Positions 1-7,010 of a DNA stretch of 64,000 nucleotides are shown one piece after another. Location: positions 1-64,000 of the forward strand of contig JAEUHN010000029.1 of the NCBI GenBank assembly GCA_016795365.1, given 5' to 3'. The notes under the pieces are model-generated. The model did no database searches, had not been told where the DNA came from, and worked only from the letters and a program-made list of their open reading frames with translations. Numbering within the stretch: the stretch's first letter is position 1; every line of letters begins with the position of its first letter. The position numbers and the translations under genes were made by a program. Source of the stretch: Verrucomicrobiaceae bacterium (GTDB taxonomy: Bacteria > Verrucomicrobiota > Verrucomicrobiia > Verrucomicrobiales > Verrucomicrobiaceae).

Positions 1-1
1 C

Positions 2-403
2 ACGAAGGGCAACGTCTTCATCAGCGTGAAGGAAGCCGACAAGCAAAACGTCGCGAGAATCGCCAAAGGCTACGCCGACCTCGGCTTCACCCTCTACGCC
101 ACCCCCGGCACCGGCCAGGTCATCACCGACGCCGGCATCCCGGTCAACATTCTCCCCAAACTCGCCAGCGGCCAGCGCCCCAACGTCATCGACCTCATGA
201 AAAACAAGGACATGGCCATGGTCATCAACACCCCCAGCGGCAAAAACACGCGTGAGGACGAAGTGAAGATCCGCACCGCGACGATGCAAAACCGCATCCC
301 CATCATGACCACACTCCGTGGTGCTGACGCGGCCTTGAAGGCGATCAAGTCACTGCAAGGCAGCGAGGTGCAGGTGAGGGCGTTGCAGGAGTATCATGGG
401 TAA
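2..403 (+). CDS. carB: Carbamoyl-phosphate synthase large subunit, C-terminal fragment
   Basis: This is the 3' end of carB; the reading frame is open from the left edge of the window. The encoded residues form the C-terminal MGS-like allosteric domain of the large subunit, which makes carbamoyl phosphate from bicarbonate, ammonia and ATP for arginine and pyrimidine synthesis. Visible family signatures are a start like FISVKEADK, the ATPGTG turn, the AGIPVN strand and the INTPSGK segment that normally contributes to UMP/ornithine binding. The catalytic ATP-grasp halves lie outside the window. The stop is TAA at 401-403. A GTG at 26 is internal and not the real start. Confidence 0.95.
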   Translation, partial: TKGNVFISVKEADKQNVARIAKGYADLGFTLYATPGTGQVITDAGIPVNILPKLASGQRPNVIDLMKNKDMAMVINTPSGKNTREDEVKIRTATMQNRIPIMTTLRGADAALKAIKSLQGSEVQVRALQEYHG

Positions 404-423
404 GTGTAGTGTGTTGATCACGG

Positions 424-1746
424 ATGAATGACATTTACTTCAGAGGTGAGCACTTCCCTTCCCTCAAAGAGTTGCACGCCAAACACGCCAAGGCTGGCGT
501 GACATATGCGGCTTTCTATGCACGATACCGGTCTGGCATAGACATTGAGGTGGCACTGTCCAATTCAGTCCTGCCACAGGATCGGCGAACCTTCTCAGTC
601 GATGGTGTGCTCTACAACAACCTCAAAGACTTGGCGGCGGCAGCAGGCATCGATTACAGACGCGCTTATAAACGATTTAGTAGAGGATGGCCAGATAGTG
701 AGATTTTCCACGGGCGCCCCAAAAAAACGAAGACGATCATTGTCCCATCGATTCGGGGCACTCCGATAGAGATTGATGGTGTAATCTATGCGAATCTGGC
801 CGCAGCGTACAATTCGATTAAACCGCCAGTCAGTCTGAACACGGTCAAACAGCGATTGCGTGTTTATCATTGGACAGCGAAACAAGCTCTTGGCCTTGAG
901 TCGAGAGTTGATGGGAGGTCAATTCGCACAGAAAGACCGTCTCACCGGCCCGCTAAAACTCTGATCAGCGCCTTCGGCATTACATATCCTGACATTGCTG
1001 CCTTGGCTAAGGCACACGGGATTAGCTACCACCTTGTATACAACAGATTGAAGTATGGGTGGACTGCTGAAAAGGCAGTCACAGAGGCGATTGGTCAAAG
1101 CGTAGATGTTAACGGCAAAACCTATAAAAGCGCGCTGAATGCTTGGGAACAACTCGGCAAGACCACATTGTTCGTGTTCAACTCGCGTCGTCAGGCTGGT
1201 CATGATTTGATGATTTGTCTTGGACTCGCACCGTTGCGGGATCAATCGCACCAGATTGACGGTAAAACTTACCCATCCCTATTGGCCGTTGCGGAAGCAT
1301 ACGGCATCAAAGAATCGGTGCTGGCTAGTCGCCTGAATCGCATGTCGATATCGGAGGCGGCAAGATATGCTCCATCGAATGGACGGTATAGTTCGAAGCG
1401 GTTTAAAGAAGAGCCGGAGTTGGCACATTCGATTGGGTGGCTGTATTTCGTCGAAATCAACTTCCCTACAGGTGCTTTGCACAAAGTGGGTATCACTCAG
1501 AGAACAGTCGAAGCTCGATTCTTGGGTCAATGTGAGTATCGGGTTCTAGGCGCTTTCCGAGGTGAATTGGCCAAACTCTTCGAAGTGGAACAGGCTTTGA
1601 TCAAAGAATTCAAAGAGAATAGTTATCGTGCAGAGGAGGAGTTTGAGGGGAGGACGGAGACCTTCATTCTAAACAAAGAAGAAGAACAGGCATTGATTTC
1701 GTTCATCAGGCGATTGCTTCCCAATTCGGAGTCATCAGTCGAGTAG
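424..1746 (+). CDS. Six-repeat protein with C-terminal GIY-YIG/T5orf172-like domain
   Basis: The gene encodes 440 aa and begins 20 nt after carB. Residues about 4-320 contain six diverged repeats of roughly 40 aa (near 4-45, 57-97, 115-158, 182-222, 226-269, 276-316). The repeat pattern is IDGxxYxSLxxxAxAxGIS, then a short helix ending in R and GW, which looks like a helix-turn-helix unit. Residues about 338-415 (GWLYFVE, then HKVGITQRTVEARF, then a helix with VEQALIKEF, then TETF) match the T5orf172/MUG113 branch of the GIY-YIG nuclease superfamily. I infer a DNA-binding array joined to a possible nuclease. Base composition is clearly more AT-rich than the flanking genes, which suggests horizontal acquisition. 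No signal peptide or membrane segment is seen. Target and function are unknown. Confidence 0.75.
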   Translation: MNDIYFRGEHFPSLKELHAKHAKAGVTYAAFYARYRSGIDIEVALSNSVLPQDRRTFSVDGVLYNNLKDLAAAAGIDYRRAYKRFSRGWPDSEIFHGRPKKTKTIIVPSIRGTPIEIDGVIYANLAAAYNSIKPPVSLNTVKQRLRVYHWTAKQALGLESRVDGRSIRTERPSHRPAKTLISAFGITYPDIAALAKAHGISYHLVYNRLKYGWTAEKAVTEAIGQSVDVNGKTYKSALNAWEQLGKTTLFVFNSRRQAGHDLMICLGLAPLRDQSHQIDGKTYPSLLAVAEAYGIKESVLASRLNRMSISEAARYAPSNGRYSSKRFKEEPELAHSIGWLYFVEINFPTGALHKVGITQRTVEARFLGQCEYRVLGAFRGELAKLFEVEQALIKEFKENSYRAEEEFEGRTETFILNKEEEQALISFIRRLLPNSESSVE

Positions 1747-1801
1747 TGAGGTTGAGTTGGCGGTGCATGGCTTGACCTTTGTTTGCCCATCTCCTCGGCT
1801 T

Positions 1802-1976
1802 GCGGACACTTCTGTCCGCCCGTCGAAGCGACTGACTCCGCTATCGCCTCCGCTTCCTGACCGCTCCACGCTCACGAACCTTGCCGAGCCCACACATGTC
1901 CCGTTGGGCGATTAGAGAGCGACTTGGCCTTTGCTTGTCCAACGCTCCGGCTTGCGGGCAAGAGCGCCCGCGCTCC
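1802..1976. repeat. REP pair (BIME) 1
   Basis: Two palindromic REP-like elements face each other. The first is at 1802-1820 (GCGGACA loop TGTCCGC) and the second at 1954-1976 (GCGGGCA-type stem followed by GCGCTCC). The cores are 152 bp apart. This unit is repeated with a period of 229 bp as the next BIME. It lies between the repeat/GIY-YIG gene and the RAYT gene in a 509-bp stretch that otherwise holds no gene. Confidence 0.8.
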
Positions 1977-2025
1977 TTTCCCTCTCGCTTCGCGTTCGGG
2001 AGGTAACGTCGCGTTGGCTTGCACA

Positions 2026-2205
2026 GGAGCGCGGACACTCCTGTCCGCCCTTCGAAGCGAAAGACTCCACCTTCGTATTCGCTTTCTGGGCGCTGCACGC
2101 TTTCGAACATTGCCGAGTCTTGAGACCTTGCGCTGGGTGGTCAGAGAACGGCTTGGCCTTTGCTTGATCATCGCTCCGACTTGCGGGCAGGAGTGCCCGC
2201 GCTCC
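2026..2205. repeat. REP pair (BIME) 2
   Basis: The forward element at 2026-2050 (GGAGC then GCGGACA CTCC TGTCCGC) is paired with an inverted element at 2183-2205 (GCGGGCA GGAG TGCCCGC then GCTCC). Core spacing is again 152 bp, and the spacer is related to that of BIME 1 across its whole length. The two units therefore form a tandem direct repeat with period 229 bp. The unit ends about 50 bp before the RAYT start codon. Confidence 0.8.
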
Positions 2206-2255
2206 TTTCTCGCTTCGCGCTTGCGGAGGGTGGCGCGCAAGCTTTTCTCACGCCC

Positions 2256-2915
2256 ATGGACTTCTTCAACGAACGCGCGGAGATCGAGAAGACGATCCAC
2301 AAGCTGCCACACTGGCAGCAAGGTCGTGTGCCCGTATTTGTCACCTTTCGTCTCGCGGATTCACTTCCTCATGAAGTCCTCGCGCCCCTCGTTGCCGCCC
2401 GCGATAGCTTCCTCGCCCAGCATCCCAAGCCCTGGGACGAAGCGACCGAGAACGAGTTCCATCGCCTGTTTTCCGTGAAGCTCGATGAGTATCTCGATGC
2501 CGGTCACGGCTGCAGCGCGCTACGTAATCCCAAAGCCGCCCAGATCGTCGCCGAACGTCTTCATCATTTCGACGGCGAATGTTACGACCTGCACAGCTAC
2601 GTCATCATGCCCAATCATGTGCATGTGCTCTTCAGTCCGCTTGACTCCATAACATTTCCCGAACTCGTGAAAGCCTGGAAAGGCATCTCCAGCCGCCTCA
2701 TTCACCAAGCACGACTGTCTGACCTGAATCCCTTCTGGCAGCCCGACTACTTCGATCGCCTCATCCGAAGTCCCCAGCACTTCGCGAAGGTCCAGCGCTA
2801 CATCGAAGACAACCCCGCAAAAGCCGATCTCCCTCCAGGCGACTACCTTCTCTGGCAAGCAAAGGAGCGCGGGCACTCCTGCCCGCCAGCCGGAGCGACT
2901 GTTAGTGAAGGGTGA
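2256..2915 (+). CDS. REP-associated tyrosine transposase (RAYT)
   Basis: This is a 219-aa Y1/HUH transposase-like protein of the RAYT type. Residues 118-125 read MPNHVHVL, the HUH metal-binding motif (HVH at 121-123), and the likely catalytic tyrosine is in RYIEDNP near residue 182. The early VTFRLADSLP segment is also typical of RAYTs. RAYTs bind and cut single-stranded REP hairpins and are domesticated relatives of IS200/IS605 TnpA. I chose the ATG at 2256 because residues upstream of it are encoded by REP DNA. The last codons (reading ERGHSCPP) are themselves encoded by a REP element, so the repeat has merged into the 3' end. The gene sits between BIME 2 and BIME 3. Confidence 0.9.
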   Translation: MDFFNERAEIEKTIHKLPHWQQGRVPVFVTFRLADSLPHEVLAPLVAARDSFLAQHPKPWDEATENEFHRLFSVKLDEYLDAGHGCSALRNPKAAQIVAERLHHFDGECYDLHSYVIMPNHVHVLFSPLDSITFPELVKAWKGISSRLIHQARLSDLNPFWQPDYFDRLIRSPQHFAKVQRYIEDNPAKADLPPGDYLLWQAKERGHSCPPAGATVSEG

Positions 2916-3045
2916 AGAGCTATCTGACCGCTCAACGCGATGGAGCGGTGCGCGATGTTCCTTTGCTGAGCAATTGACGTTAAGAGGACGACATCATCGT
3001 TCCAAGTCCAGCGCTTCGACGAGCGGACAAGAGTGTCCGCGCTCC
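2864..3045. repeat. REP pair (BIME) 3
   Basis: The forward element at 2864-2887 overlaps the RAYT 3' end, and the inverted element is at 3023-3045. Core spacing is about 154 bp, nearly the same as in BIMEs 1 and 2. The spacer has diverged but shares a TGACCGCTC-type block with them. The RAYT gene is thus bracketed by BIMEs of the same architecture. Confidence 0.75.
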
Positions 3046-3063
3046 ATTCCCCACGCACCACGC

Positions 3064-3130
3064 TGGTGCTAGTCACCTTCCACCTCGCCGATTCAATGCC
3101 GTGAGAACTCCTCGATGACTGGCCTCGCGA
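3064..3130 (+). pseudogene. RAYT remnant
   Basis: Just after the REP at 3023-3045, a short stretch translates as LVLVTFHLADSMP, a stop, then ELLD. This resembles the VPVFVTFRLADSLPHEVL segment of the intact RAYT at 2256. The in-frame stop and the lack of a recognisable HUH region downstream indicate a decayed copy. The rest of the 2916-3332 interval has no gene I can support. Confidence 0.5.
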
Positions 3131-3332
3131 TACTCCTCGACTAAAGTATCGGAGACCAAGCCTGCGATGCCTTCCTCATCGCAAATTCACCGCCACGAAG
3201 TGAGTTCACTGGAGCCTGTTACCATGAACCATTAACCACGACGCGCGACAAACCCCTCGGTAAGACAGGACACGGGCGCGCGTTGGCTACTCCACGCTGG
3301 CGAAGGTTTGCATCCGTGCTCCTGTGCGCTCC

Positions 3333-3797
3333 ATGCCGCATCAGTTTCGCACCGTGGATCAGCGTGTTTGGAAAGCCAGCCAGGCGATCGTGCTTTGGCG
3401 AGCAGATGGTTCACGGGTGGAGGGGATTTGGGGTGGATCGGCTACGGAGGAACGGCTCGATTGGTGGCTGCGCAAGCCGGGTAATGAGTTGACGCAGACC
3501 GACGAGATCGCCGCAGTCGCCGTTCGAGATGATGAGTCGAAGGAGGTGCGATGGGGCGATGCTCCGCAAGGCGCACGATTGTTCTTCGTGCTGGAGGCTC
3601 CGGTGATAGGGAAGTCGGGCGAGGCGTATCGGCTGGCGAAGATGGTAACGACGGCAGCGACTTCAGCGCAGGCGAGTTACTTTTGTGATGACCGGTTTGC
3701 GTTGCTGGGCCGCTTCAATTCCGAGGGTCTGATTTCGAGGATGCAACCCCTGGCACCACCACCTTTGCAGCGTCCAATCCAAGGTGAGTTGTTCTGA
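3333..3797 (+). CDS. Hypothetical protein
   Basis: This 154-aa protein (from the ATG at 3333) belongs to no family I recognise. It has a mixed alpha/beta composition, no signal peptide and no membrane segment. It starts HQFRTVDQRVWKASQ, has a Trp-rich part (GIWGG, LDWWLRK) and ends in a proline-rich tail (PLAPPPLQRPIQGELF) that could be a binding peptide. It is followed by a decayed isomerase fragment and then the ParA-like gene on the same strand. A GTG at 3324 is an alternative start. Confidence 0.55.
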   Translation: MPHQFRTVDQRVWKASQAIVLWRADGSRVEGIWGGSATEERLDWWLRKPGNELTQTDEIAAVAVRDDESKEVRWGDAPQGARLFFVLEAPVIGKSGEAYRLAKMVTTAATSAQASYFCDDRFALLGRFNSEGLISRMQPLAPPPLQRPIQGELF

Positions 3798-3872
3798 CCA
3801 TGTCGTCGCGCTCTTTCGACGCGGAATCTTAGCTCGCCATCCGGGCATCCTTGTGGCTGGCTACCTACGCTC

Positions 3873-4110
3873 CGGCTCGGCGGGTAAGGTCCACTTCTCT
3901 TTTTTCATCAACTGCAGCACTTCTTTGATCGGGGTCTGGCCTTGGCCCCGGGGCAGGTTGCCGCCGTCGGCGGTGCGGTCTTTGAGATGCAGGTTCGTGA
4001 TGCACGCGTGATACTTCTCCAGCACAGGAATCGGCGACTTACCCTTCGAGCCCGCGAGGTTGTGACTACAGTCGAAGATGGCATCGTTGAAGGGGTGCGA
4101 CGTCGTGAAA
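3873..4110 (-). pseudogene. Decayed fragment of sugar phosphate isomerase gene
   Basis: On the minus strand this segment encodes AGSKGKSPIPVLEKYH, NLHLKDRTADGGNLP and IKEVLQLMKKEKWT. These match the C-terminal third of the Tat-exported isomerase at 5625-6500 almost residue for residue. Nucleotide identity is high for about 190 bp. It then degrades towards 4110, with an apparent deletion of about 30 nt relative to the intact gene. The C-terminus is also lost (PAEPERR replaces PAEIELEYK). It is a duplicated or recombined fragment without a plausible start. The remainder of 3798-4343 contains nothing I can support. Confidence 0.75.
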
Positions 4111-4343
4111 CGACGGTTTGAGGTGCTCTGTCGCAACGGCGTAAATCTGACCGCTGGAGCAGGTTGAGGCAAAACCAAGAGAATTTCATGGGCAATACGA
4201 GAGCCGGTGGAGAATGCTGCCGGGCAGGCATGCTTCGTGCGGAGTCGGAAGGCCGTCCCTCATGAAAACTCATCATCCATTCTCGACACCGCCAACCTCC
4301 CTGTTGCCCGTTCATCTCATCAATTTCAAACTTGCTGACTAGC

Positions 4344-5039
4344 ATGGCTACCATTCATCTGGTGGGAGGGGAGAAAGGGGGTGTGGGCAAGTCTGTTGTT
4401 TCACGGGTGTTGGCCCAGTATTTGATCGATCACCAAATCGAGTTCCAAGGTTTCGATACCGACCGCTCGCATGGATCATTGCTGCGGTTTTACACGGACT
4501 ATGCGTCGCCAGTCGTCGTCGATAAATATGAGAGCCTGGACATGATCGTTGAGGCAGCGGTGACCAGTGCGGAGAAGCGCGTGCTCGTCGATCTGGCGGC
4601 GCAGACCCATGATTCCCTGGTGAAGTGGATGGACGAATCCGGCGTGCTGGAAATGGCGGGCGAATCGGGACTGACGATCAAATACTGGCACGTCATGGAC
4701 TCCGGGAAGGATTCGGTGGACCTGCTGAAGAAGCTCTTCGACCGCTTCGGCCCACGGCTGAACTACGTCATCGTCCTGAACCAACTGCGTGGTGACAGCT
4801 TTGATATCTTCGACAAGTCGGAGGAGAAGCCGCGAGCGTCAGAATTGAACGCCCAGATAATCACGCTGCGCAAACTGCATGACACCGTGATCAACAAGAT
4901 CGACGCCCTGAGCACCAGTTTTTGGGCAGCCAAGAACCGGTGCGACAGCCATCCAAGCGGGCTCGGTCTGCTGGAGCGCCAGCGTGTGAAGATGTGGCTG
5001 AACAATGCCTACGAGCAGTTGGATCAAGTGGGAGTTTGA
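4344..5039 (+). CDS. Orphan ParA/MinD-like P-loop ATPase
   Basis: The protein has 231 aa from the ATG at 4344. The N-terminus carries a deviant Walker A motif (GGEKGGVGKSVVSR), the hallmark of the ParA/MinD/SIMIBI class. A Walker B-like segment (RVLVDLAAQT) lies near residue 80. After residue about 100 the sequence diverges from classic chromosome-partition ParA proteins. Known relatives position plasmids, chromosomes or protein complexes through ATP-dependent dimerisation. No ParB-like gene or parS-like array is adjacent, so its cargo is unknown. It resembles the accessory ParA-like proteins seen on mobile elements and could be a relic of one. Confidence 0.75.
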   Translation: MATIHLVGGEKGGVGKSVVSRVLAQYLIDHQIEFQGFDTDRSHGSLLRFYTDYASPVVVDKYESLDMIVEAAVTSAEKRVLVDLAAQTHDSLVKWMDESGVLEMAGESGLTIKYWHVMDSGKDSVDLLKKLFDRFGPRLNYVIVLNQLRGDSFDIFDKSEEKPRASELNAQIITLRKLHDTVINKIDALSTSFWAAKNRCDSHPSGLGLLERQRVKMWLNNAYEQLDQVGV

Positions 5040-5105
5040 TCGGCATCGCTTATTGCTGGTCTTATTTTTTCTTCGCGCCGCTCAGACGTCAGCTTATGGT
5101 TGCAC

Positions 5106-5477
5106 ATGAATCAGTCTTCTCTCGGACTTCTGCGCGTGAAGGTAGTGGCGCTGGCGGTGAGCGATCTGGACCGCGCCCATCAGTTCTATGGTGGCACGCT
5201 GGGACTGGAGCCGGCGATGGAAAATGGGCAAGTGGTGGGCTTTCAGTTGGAACACCTCGTCTTGATGCTCAAGCCGGTCACAGACTGGTATGGCCGTCCG
5301 ACCATAGAGCCAAATCCGCGCATCACGCTGGAAGTGGCCAACGCAAGGGCGACCGAGCAGGCGTTGATCGAGCGCGGGGTCGTCATTTCCGACCTTGTTC
5401 AGGATTACGATGGATTCCTCGTCGGTGCATTTCTCGACAGCGAGGGTAACAAGCTTTGGTTTTGCTCGCAGTCATAG
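5106..5477 (+). CDS. VOC (glyoxalase/bleomycin resistance) family protein
   Basis: This 123-aa protein has the vicinal oxygen chelate fold: KVVALAVSDLDRAHQFYGGTLGLEP at the start of the first beta-alpha-beta-beta-beta module, and VGAFLDSEGNKLWFCS at the end of the second. VOC enzymes use a divalent metal for isomerisation, dioxygenation or drug sequestration; sequence alone does not give the substrate. The ATG at 5106 is preferred over a TTG at 5100. It is cytosolic and apparently monocistronic. Confidence 0.8.
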   Translation: MNQSSLGLLRVKVVALAVSDLDRAHQFYGGTLGLEPAMENGQVVGFQLEHLVLMLKPVTDWYGRPTIEPNPRITLEVANARATEQALIERGVVISDLVQDYDGFLVGAFLDSEGNKLWFCSQS

Positions 5478-5624
5478 TGCACGCCGAGCAAGACCACTCA
5501 GGGGATTTCTCATTCGCAAATCGAAGCTTCGAAACTCGCGTTGCGTGGTCAGCAAATAAGGAACGCGACGTCAGCCTGCATTAATCTACGGACGGTTGTG
5601 CTGTCCCTCGGAGGTGAACAACGC

Positions 5625-6500
5625 TCACGCCAGCGCCTCTTGGCAATACTGCACGCACTTCGCCACTTCTTTCACCGCGTCGGAGCCTTCGGGGATCTTG
5701 TATTCCAGCTCGATCTCGGCGGGGAAGGTCCACTTCTCCTTCTTCATCAACTGCAGCACTTCCTTGATCGGCGTCTGGCCCTGGCCCCAGGGCAGGTTGC
5801 CGCCGTCGGTGGTGCGGTCTTTGAGGTGGAGGTTCACGATGCGGTCGTGATACTTCTCGAGCACGGGGATCGGCGACTTGCCCTTCGATCCAGCGACGTA
5901 GTGCCCGATGTCGAGGTTCAGGCCGATGTATTGGCCGAGTTCGAAGATCGGGTCGTGGTATTCCATCTCGGGCAGATTGTTGGTATGGTTGTGGAAGCCG
6001 ACCCAGATCTTGTGCTTGTCCGCGAAGGGAGCGACTCGCTTGGCGAGGATGGCATTGCGCTCGGTGGTCACGCCGGTGCAGCCCAGCGCCTTCGCCACGA
6101 GGAAGCTGAAGTCGATCTCTTCATCCGACTGGCCGAAGCCCATCTTGTGGATGTGAATGTTGACGCCCGCGTCGTTGAACATCTTCCGCAGTTCCTTGCA
6201 CTTCGCGAGCTGCTGCTCACGCTCCGCGTCGGTGGCCTTGCCTTTGATGCCTGCAAAGTCCTGGATCGGTCCACCCATGAGTTCGGTTTCGCTGAGGCCG
6301 TCATCAAGCAAGGCCTTCAGTGTCTCCTGCGCTGTCTTTGCCATGCTGCGATAGCTATACGTGATGCAGCCAATGCGCACGCCATTGAAGACGGAGTTGG
6401 GCTTCTCAGCGGCCAAACCGAAACGTGGAAGCGAAAAACCCGTGGCAGCAGCAAGCGTGGTGCCGAGGAAGTGGCGACGGGAGAACGAGTGAGTGGTCAT
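5625..6500 (-). CDS. Tat-exported sugar phosphate isomerase/epimerase
   Basis: This 291-aa protein has a Tat signal (SRRHFLGTTLAAA) followed by an AP-endonuclease-2/xylose-isomerase-like TIM barrel. Visible barrel features are IGCITYSYRSM in the first strand, VGFHNHTNNLPEM in the middle, and metal-site regions LNLDIGHYVAG and IVNLHLKDRT. Such proteins isomerise or epimerise sugars and inositols, and Planctomycetes and Verrucomicrobia export many of them. The substrate is unknown. A partial decayed copy lies at 3873-4110. The gene is transcribed alone, convergent with the VOC gene. Confidence 0.85.
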   Translation of the reverse strand: MTTHSFSRRHFLGTTLAAATGFSLPRFGLAAEKPNSVFNGVRIGCITYSYRSMAKTAQETLKALLDDGLSETELMGGPIQDFAGIKGKATDAEREQQLAKCKELRKMFNDAGVNIHIHKMGFGQSDEEIDFSFLVAKALGCTGVTTERNAILAKRVAPFADKHKIWVGFHNHTNNLPEMEYHDPIFELGQYIGLNLDIGHYVAGSKGKSPIPVLEKYHDRIVNLHLKDRTTDGGNLPWGQGQTPIKEVLQLMKKEKWTFPAEIELEYKIPEGSDAVKEVAKCVQYCQEALA

Positions 6501-7010
6501 GCAAAGGTGGAACGCGCAAGCACGGCATCTTTTGCTGGAATCTCGGGGAAAACAAAAACGTGGTGGTGAAGAGCTTGGCGAAGCAAAACGAATCGACCGG
6601 GGATTCCAGCTTCCGCTGACTCCGATTTTTCGAAGTGACAGCGTCGAGGTTACCCCTGCATCTCCCCAACGAGCATCGCATGGAGTTGTGGCGCTGGGGA
6701 CGAACCAAACAAAAGCCGTGTGCCTGCGAGAGGACGACTCCGCGGATGTGTGGAGCCTGATTTGATGTCGCCCTCAGGTCATTTGTCGCGCTCGTCCGCT
6801 GTGGAGATACACATAAATGGACCGTTCCAGCGACACCGAAGACACTTGCGACATTCGCGGGCAAGCGGGCCGTCGAGCTACCTTCCGTTATCGGTCACGA
6901 ACCTTAAATCACCGTCATCTCGACAGCTTGAGGCAAGAATGTTTGCACATGTCTCCTCAGTAGAACGCCATTGCCAGCCCACTGCTTTGTCGCCAGCATG
7001 CCGAGACACA
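6501..7010. other. Gene-free interval
   Basis: About 510 bp separate the divergent isomerase and membrane-protein genes. The frame of the downstream gene stays open back to about 6720, but the upstream residues look like random Arg/Ser-rich translation, so I do not count them as coding. Promoters for both flanking genes should lie here; I found no convincing -35/-10 pair, RNA or repeat. Confidence 0.4.

Follow-up and report, generated by a model that had tools for sequence, protein, structure and literature searches.

A putative modular nuclease with six helix-turn-helix units behind carB, an insertion hotspot in a family of Verrucomicrobia

Homing endonucleases of the T5orf172 type occur at boundaries of genetic exchange, and the authors who described this stress that homing often cannot be deduced from sequence alone (PMC10448857). 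In those of phages such as ICP1, the T5orf172 domain stands at the C-terminus behind repeated DNA-binding modules. The same order is seen in a protein of 440 amino acids encoded at positions 424–1746 (+ strand) of the DNA analysed here, a stretch of 64,000 nucleotides from a Verrucomicrobiaceae bacterium (the window). The ICP1-type modules are mostly zinc fingers (CapR, DUF723/DUF4379; PMC10448857), whereas those of the window protein are predicted to consist of a β-hairpin and a helix-turn-helix. A second relevant protein is the ICP1 nuclease Odn (Gp88/ORF88), which retains the catalytic Arg and Glu of GIY-YIG enzymes but lacks the His/Tyr of helix 1 (PMC8263062). By alignment, this pattern also fits the window protein, which however has no counterpart of the RepA_N-like part by which Odn is directed to a satellite origin (PMC8263062). 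GIY-YIG homing endonucleases of the I-TevI type likewise join a nuclease domain to NUMOD-type modules (PMC1564403), but in the reverse order, the nuclease domain being C-terminal in the window protein. While the overall kind of protein is known, a T5orf172 nuclease in which an array of helix-turn-helix units takes the place of zinc fingers is new in architecture.

Proteins with the same whole-length architecture are few and scattered. They comprise Vpf497/ORF8 of the Vibrio filamentous phages VfO3K6 and f237 (25% identity, E 2e-22) and homologues on three gammaproteobacterial contigs, from Pseudohongiella, Aliiglaciecola and Thiocapsa. Like the window protein, these proteins consist of an N-terminal array of units, a short linker with the motif (N)SGRY, and a C-terminal nuclease-like domain of the pattern WLYFVxI...KxGIT...R...E...E. 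They contain seven units instead of six, are annotated in their records only as "unknown", and are encoded in a filamentous phage or at unrelated positions in chromosomes. Even the nearest homologues share no more than 25–30% identity with the window protein, and scans of genome contigs and viral contigs with this single protein as the query returned no match. The homologous genes have differing neighbours and are clearly richer in AT than their surroundings, except for the one in Pseudohongiella. No flanking duplications were found around them, either on the three gammaproteobacterial contigs or in the Vibrio phage. In the Pseudohongiella metagenome-assembled genome (L102:1635-5413), the homologue lies 82 nt behind an AAA_13 gene that matches the candidate defence family PDC-S06 (E 8e-271), and a SIR2-like gene is also nearby.

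The first-pass annotation had described six diverged repeats of about 40 residues in the N-terminal part of the window protein. We examined this description with a unit profile that was made exclusively from the units of other proteins, with the window sequence excluded. This profile matched the window protein with 131.6 bits (E 8e-41) in six hits (residues 5–45, 58–89, 115–159, 181–219, 228–237 and 278–306), while the best full score among 200 shuffled controls was 6.2 bits. Five of the six units are individually significant: unit 1 (427–558, + strand as are all units; residues ~2–45; i-E 2.8e-4), unit 2 (592–711; residues ~57–96; i-E 5e-7), unit 3 (763–900; residues ~114–159; i-E 1.6e-4), unit 4 (961–1092; residues ~180–223; i-E 8e-14) and unit 6 (1246–1365; residues ~275–314; i-E 2e-8). 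Unit 5 (1099–1218; residues ~226–265) is degenerate and scores weakly (i-E 0.14), though its hairpin and helices are visible in the AlphaFold model. Matching units are carried by phage HNH endonucleases (phrog_3377, E 4e-15), and unit 2 overlaps a weak Pfam match to an I-TevI DNA-binding domain (residues 48–75; 22 bits at a cut-off of 27). Since the curated NUMOD/IENR profiles in Pfam gave no NUMOD match to the window protein, we call the array NUMOD1-like and not NUMOD1.

The structural model agrees with this assignment. AlphaFold run on the single sequence produced a model of no use (pLDDT 37), but a model built on an alignment with five homologues reached middling confidence (pLDDT 68, pTM 0.30). 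It contains six units of a β-hairpin followed by a helix-turn-helix (in unit 1, strands 4–6 and 9–11 and helices 14–21 and 28–36) and then a GIY-YIG-like C-terminus. Comparison of the model with PDB structures returned no significant fold match, and a phmmer search of the PDB with the window protein gave chance matches only. Among predicted viral structures, the top match is a NUMOD1 protein, and the other best matches include HNH, GIY-YIG and intron endonucleases as well as T5 Orf172 proteins; ICP1 ORF88 (Odn) ranks 48th. As is expected of a protein built like a string of beads, overall TM-scores in this comparison are low, and the matches therefore support the kind of modules and not a rigid common fold. 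With predicted structure, viral structure matches and phage families in agreement, the proposal of helix-turn-helix repeats stands, and sequence and model support the view that the array consists of tandem, putatively DNA-binding units of about 40 residues joined to a nuclease domain.

This C-terminal domain (1432–1722, + strand; residues ~337–433) was recognised as T5orf172-like on the first reading, and the profiles concur, although marginally. Against T5orf172 (PF10544, cut-off 20 bits), the whole protein scores 18.2 bits and only the isolated C-terminus of 153 residues passes, with 21.0 bits; phrog_681, annotated as "endonuclease", matches the C-terminus with E 5.5e-7. In the model, the core follows the GIY-YIG-like order strand–strand–helix–strand–long helix (strands 337–347 and 350–356, helix 359–366, strand 371–381, helix 382–398), followed by a strand at 413–415 and a helix at 418–431. 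The landmark residues are Y341, K354-V355-G356, R365, E389 and E412, of which Y341, K354, G356, R365 and E389 are invariant across the five homologues. From alignment and model we assign Y341, R365 and E389 as the putative catalytic Tyr of motif 1, Arg of helix 1 and Glu of the long helix, respectively. Retention of all three, together with a reading frame that is unbroken over 440 codons, makes it quite unlikely that the protein is a decayed, catalytically dead nuclease that now acts solely as a DNA-binding regulator or is inert. The degeneration of unit 5 and the marginal T5orf172 score would fit such decay, as would the existence of a large Alteromonas protein that has the same units without a nuclease. 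This protein, encoded on a megaplasmid of Alteromonas mediterranea (L058:2275-4557, 760 amino acids), has the unit in about eleven significant copies, and a nuclease domain was not found in it.

The gene begins 21 nt past the stop codon of the essential gene carB, a spacing comparable to that of the inserts in relatives (12–40 nt). The suggestion that it follows carB immediately and is AT-rich relative to its neighbours was borne out. Its GC content is 0.494, compared to 0.589 for the window, and its GC3 is 0.52, compared to 0.80–0.86 for KorA and the carB tail. An insertion would have been contradicted by a gene native to all relatives, but this one is absent from all 67 other genomes of the bacterial family, and carB loci free of it exist in all relatives. 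It was also not found among 388 sampled genomes of the phylum, the window's own genome apart. Judged from these sequence comparisons, the nuclease gene is foreign, recently and horizontally acquired and not native in the relatives.

The site of insertion turned out to be shared by many other genes. We searched relatives with the carB 3' end and retrieved about 60 carB loci; carB homologues were present in 57 of 57 relatives searched, and additional partial carB copies surfaced behind carB. The interval between carB and the convergent isomerase gene ranges from 70 nt in an insert-free locus (L071) to several kilobases. Almost every genome has a different gene in the first position behind carB, and in many cases this is a conflict gene: PIN/small-ORF and GNAT/small-ORF pairs, DUF3800, ORF6N, SIR2, TIR, GmrSD, SMEK, caspase-like and N6 methyltransferase genes all occupy this slot. 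The PIN and GNAT matches fall just under the Pfam cut-offs, and from gene order alone we infer that the accompanying small ORFs are antitoxins. Within the family, insertions thus concentrate at the carB 3' end, and the case for such a hotspot, once the flanks of relatives are compared, is stronger than the first-pass annotation had supposed.

Of about 55 loci, 10 have a partial, displaced carB 3' end behind the first insert (L032, L034, L040, L043, L044, L045, L046, L047, L048 and L049). Seven of 13 displaced ends, isolated copies included, begin 243–253 nt before the carB stop, and those that do so adjoin different passengers, namely PIN plus small ORF, GNAT-like plus small ORF, and DUF3800. 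Where the passenger is a PIN/small-ORF or GNAT/small-ORF pair, the small ORF comes second, and its stop codon precedes the junction by a few nucleotides. Cassettes also stack, and some displaced ends lie two deep. L032 reads carB, GNAT pair, carB end, DUF3800, carB end, HsdR-like gene; elsewhere a PIN cassette precedes the remains of a cassette that is found alone in L040. ORF6N directly follows carB in L037 and stands behind a displaced carB end in L080. A comparable arrangement of an inserted gene with a spare 3' end is known from fungal mitochondrial atp6 and cox2 (PMC4019555). In contrast to that mitochondrial, intron-linked case, the window has no spare end and most carB cassettes have no nuclease. 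As far as our literature search goes, cassettes ending in a carB tail are apparently undescribed; that no description was found is weak evidence, as subscription papers lay mostly outside the search, and the mechanism proposed below is one that we infer.

Several loci also have a hairpin-forming palindrome within the first 20–35 nt after the carB stop; it precedes different passengers and occurs in different genera. An identical 19-nt palindrome, CTTCGAGTGGCACTCGAAG, follows the carB stop in L034, L040 and L048, a palindrome is also present in this flank in L044, L045, L069 and L043, and palindromes of the type GAGGTGGTCGCAAATTGCGACCACCTC occur in L037, L039, L068 and L080. The stems show compensating changes, and the palindrome may be an operator, an RNA element or an attachment site.

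The window's nuclease gene comes immediately after a complete carB 3' end, as do the inserts of the family's cassettes, and the ancestry of this end is discordant with that of core genes. Because the contig end falls inside carB, the window includes no more than its final 403 nt; the open frame at 2–403 (+ strand) covers the last 133 codons and the stop, and has carB homologues in relatives. For the window's KorA and YidC, the nearest counterparts are those of the same-genus genome G001 (98% and 87% amino acid identity), compared to at most 86% and 59% for other genera. The carB tail (132 amino acids), on the other hand, is identical to those of four genomes from other genera (G011, G439, G436 and G440) and only 92% identical to that of G001. 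At the DNA level, it is 93–99% identical to genera whose KorA genes agree at 71–77%, and codons 83–132 from the carB end are 99.3% identical to one copy in G436, at a KorA identity of 75%. These comparisons indicate that the carB end of the window, of G001 or of both came from elsewhere.

A greater similarity of the carB tail than of the rest of carB between genera, which would be a sign of cassette exchange, was considered and rejected, since family-wide identity at fourfold sites is 0.66 for the last 82 codons and 0.82–0.86 upstream. As pairs with outgroups have a comparable step at the tail, this step does not decide the matter. Both values exceed that of KorA (0.52). Because its fourfold sites are more alike across the family than those of KorA, carB seems to have been exchanged between genera as a whole; alternatively, with KorA as the one control gene, the pattern may reflect strong codon constraint on carB. 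Contigs that end inside carB are not limited to the window (window 1) and occur in G436 (L065, L066), G439 (L064, L076) and G011 (L032, L033), and some genomes have two different carB 3' ends. These features may reflect short-read assemblies that break on repeated carB tails, or mixtures of strains.

We consider it probable that the gene encodes a sequence-specific endonuclease that is carried as a horizontally acquired passenger among the conflict genes in the carB slot. According to this proposal, the six NUMOD1-like units, lined up like beads, would bind a DNA site of extended length, and the T5orf172/GIY-YIG domain would cut at a set place relative to the bound site. The gene would have come horizontally into a slot used for toxin-antitoxin-like pairs and for genes of the restriction and abortive-infection type, into which incoming DNA may often bring its own carB 3' end, so that carB is restored and the old end displaced downstream. 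The most likely target of the nuclease would be a particular mobile element or phage, by analogy with Odn of ICP1, and a benefit of carrying the gene is presumed. We found no displaced carB end downstream of the nuclease gene or elsewhere in its genome, and for this reason its own entry may have differed from that of the cassettes: ordinary homologous exchange may have brought it in from a donor in which it was already present, or loss may have removed the old carB end.

The nuclease could instead be a free-standing homing endonuclease, which cleaves gene-free chromosomes in carB or at its 3' junction and is copied in by repair, with the co-transferred carB tail protecting the cleavage site. 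T5orf172 proteins with repeated DNA-binding modules do form a large class of phage homing endonucleases (PMC10448857), homing genes are linked to duplicated 3' gene ends in fungal mitochondria (PMC4019555), and the window gene stands 21 nt behind carB, beside a carB tail of foreign type. We nevertheless regard homing into carB as unlikely. The gene is not followed by a displaced carB end, no other T5orf172 protein was found at carB in the family, and the homologues lie at unrelated places without flanking duplication. Moreover, nuclease-free cassettes linked to carB use the same slot, so that the slot does not require a nuclease. For this last reason, we favour the passenger conflict nuclease over homing into carB.

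If it reads a long site unit by unit, the protein would represent a modular nuclease of natural origin whose code could be deciphered. The carB neighbourhood, however, is a larger and more interesting finding than the nuclease itself. Across the family, defence and toxin-antitoxin genes that bring their own carB tail appear to dock at the carB 3' end. We suggest tentatively, and with somewhat less than even confidence, that carB is a docking site independent of integrases, at which conflict genes arrive with a carB 3' end of their own as a homology arm that restores carB, and cassettes stack in the manner of islands at tRNA genes. If true, docking at carB would be an integrase-free route by which bacteria gather conflict genes. 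Perhaps, but very doubtfully, site-specific nucleases such as that of the window start the exchange by cutting carB.

On its other side, the nuclease gene is followed by REP-like repeats (1790–2230) and by an ORF for a REP-associated tyrosine transposase-like protein (2160–2915, + strand; Y1_Tnp, PF01797, E 3e-10), which scores 60 bits against NF047646, under that model's cut-off of 80. The REP/RAYT island that had been noted beside the gene is therefore real. In insert-free relatives, similar REP sequences lie within ~30 nt downstream of the carB stop; in the window, a REP of this kind is separated from carB by the nuclease gene. Whether or not they have an insert, relatives commonly contain REP/RAYT sequences around carB. 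Taken together with the missing displaced carB end, this could mean that the nuclease gene is an ordinary intergenic gene and a chance neighbour of the island, with no special relation to carB. Such a coincidence is highly improbable, given that this exact place is occupied by a different gene in nearly every relative and that the carB tail is at odds with core genes.

An Rfam scan of positions 1–6600 gave no match. Farther downstream, positions 4332–5039 (+ strand) encode an orphan ParA/MinD-like P-loop ATPase of 235 amino acids with sub-threshold Pfam matches and no visible partner gene. It sits between the full-length sugar-phosphate isomerase-like gene (5625–6500, − strand) and an isomerase-like fragment upstream of this copy (3870–4076, − strand), which corresponds to amino acids 196–264 and is 75% identical to a relative's protein. 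The interval between carB and the isomerase gene of the window thus also holds a second, partial isomerase end.
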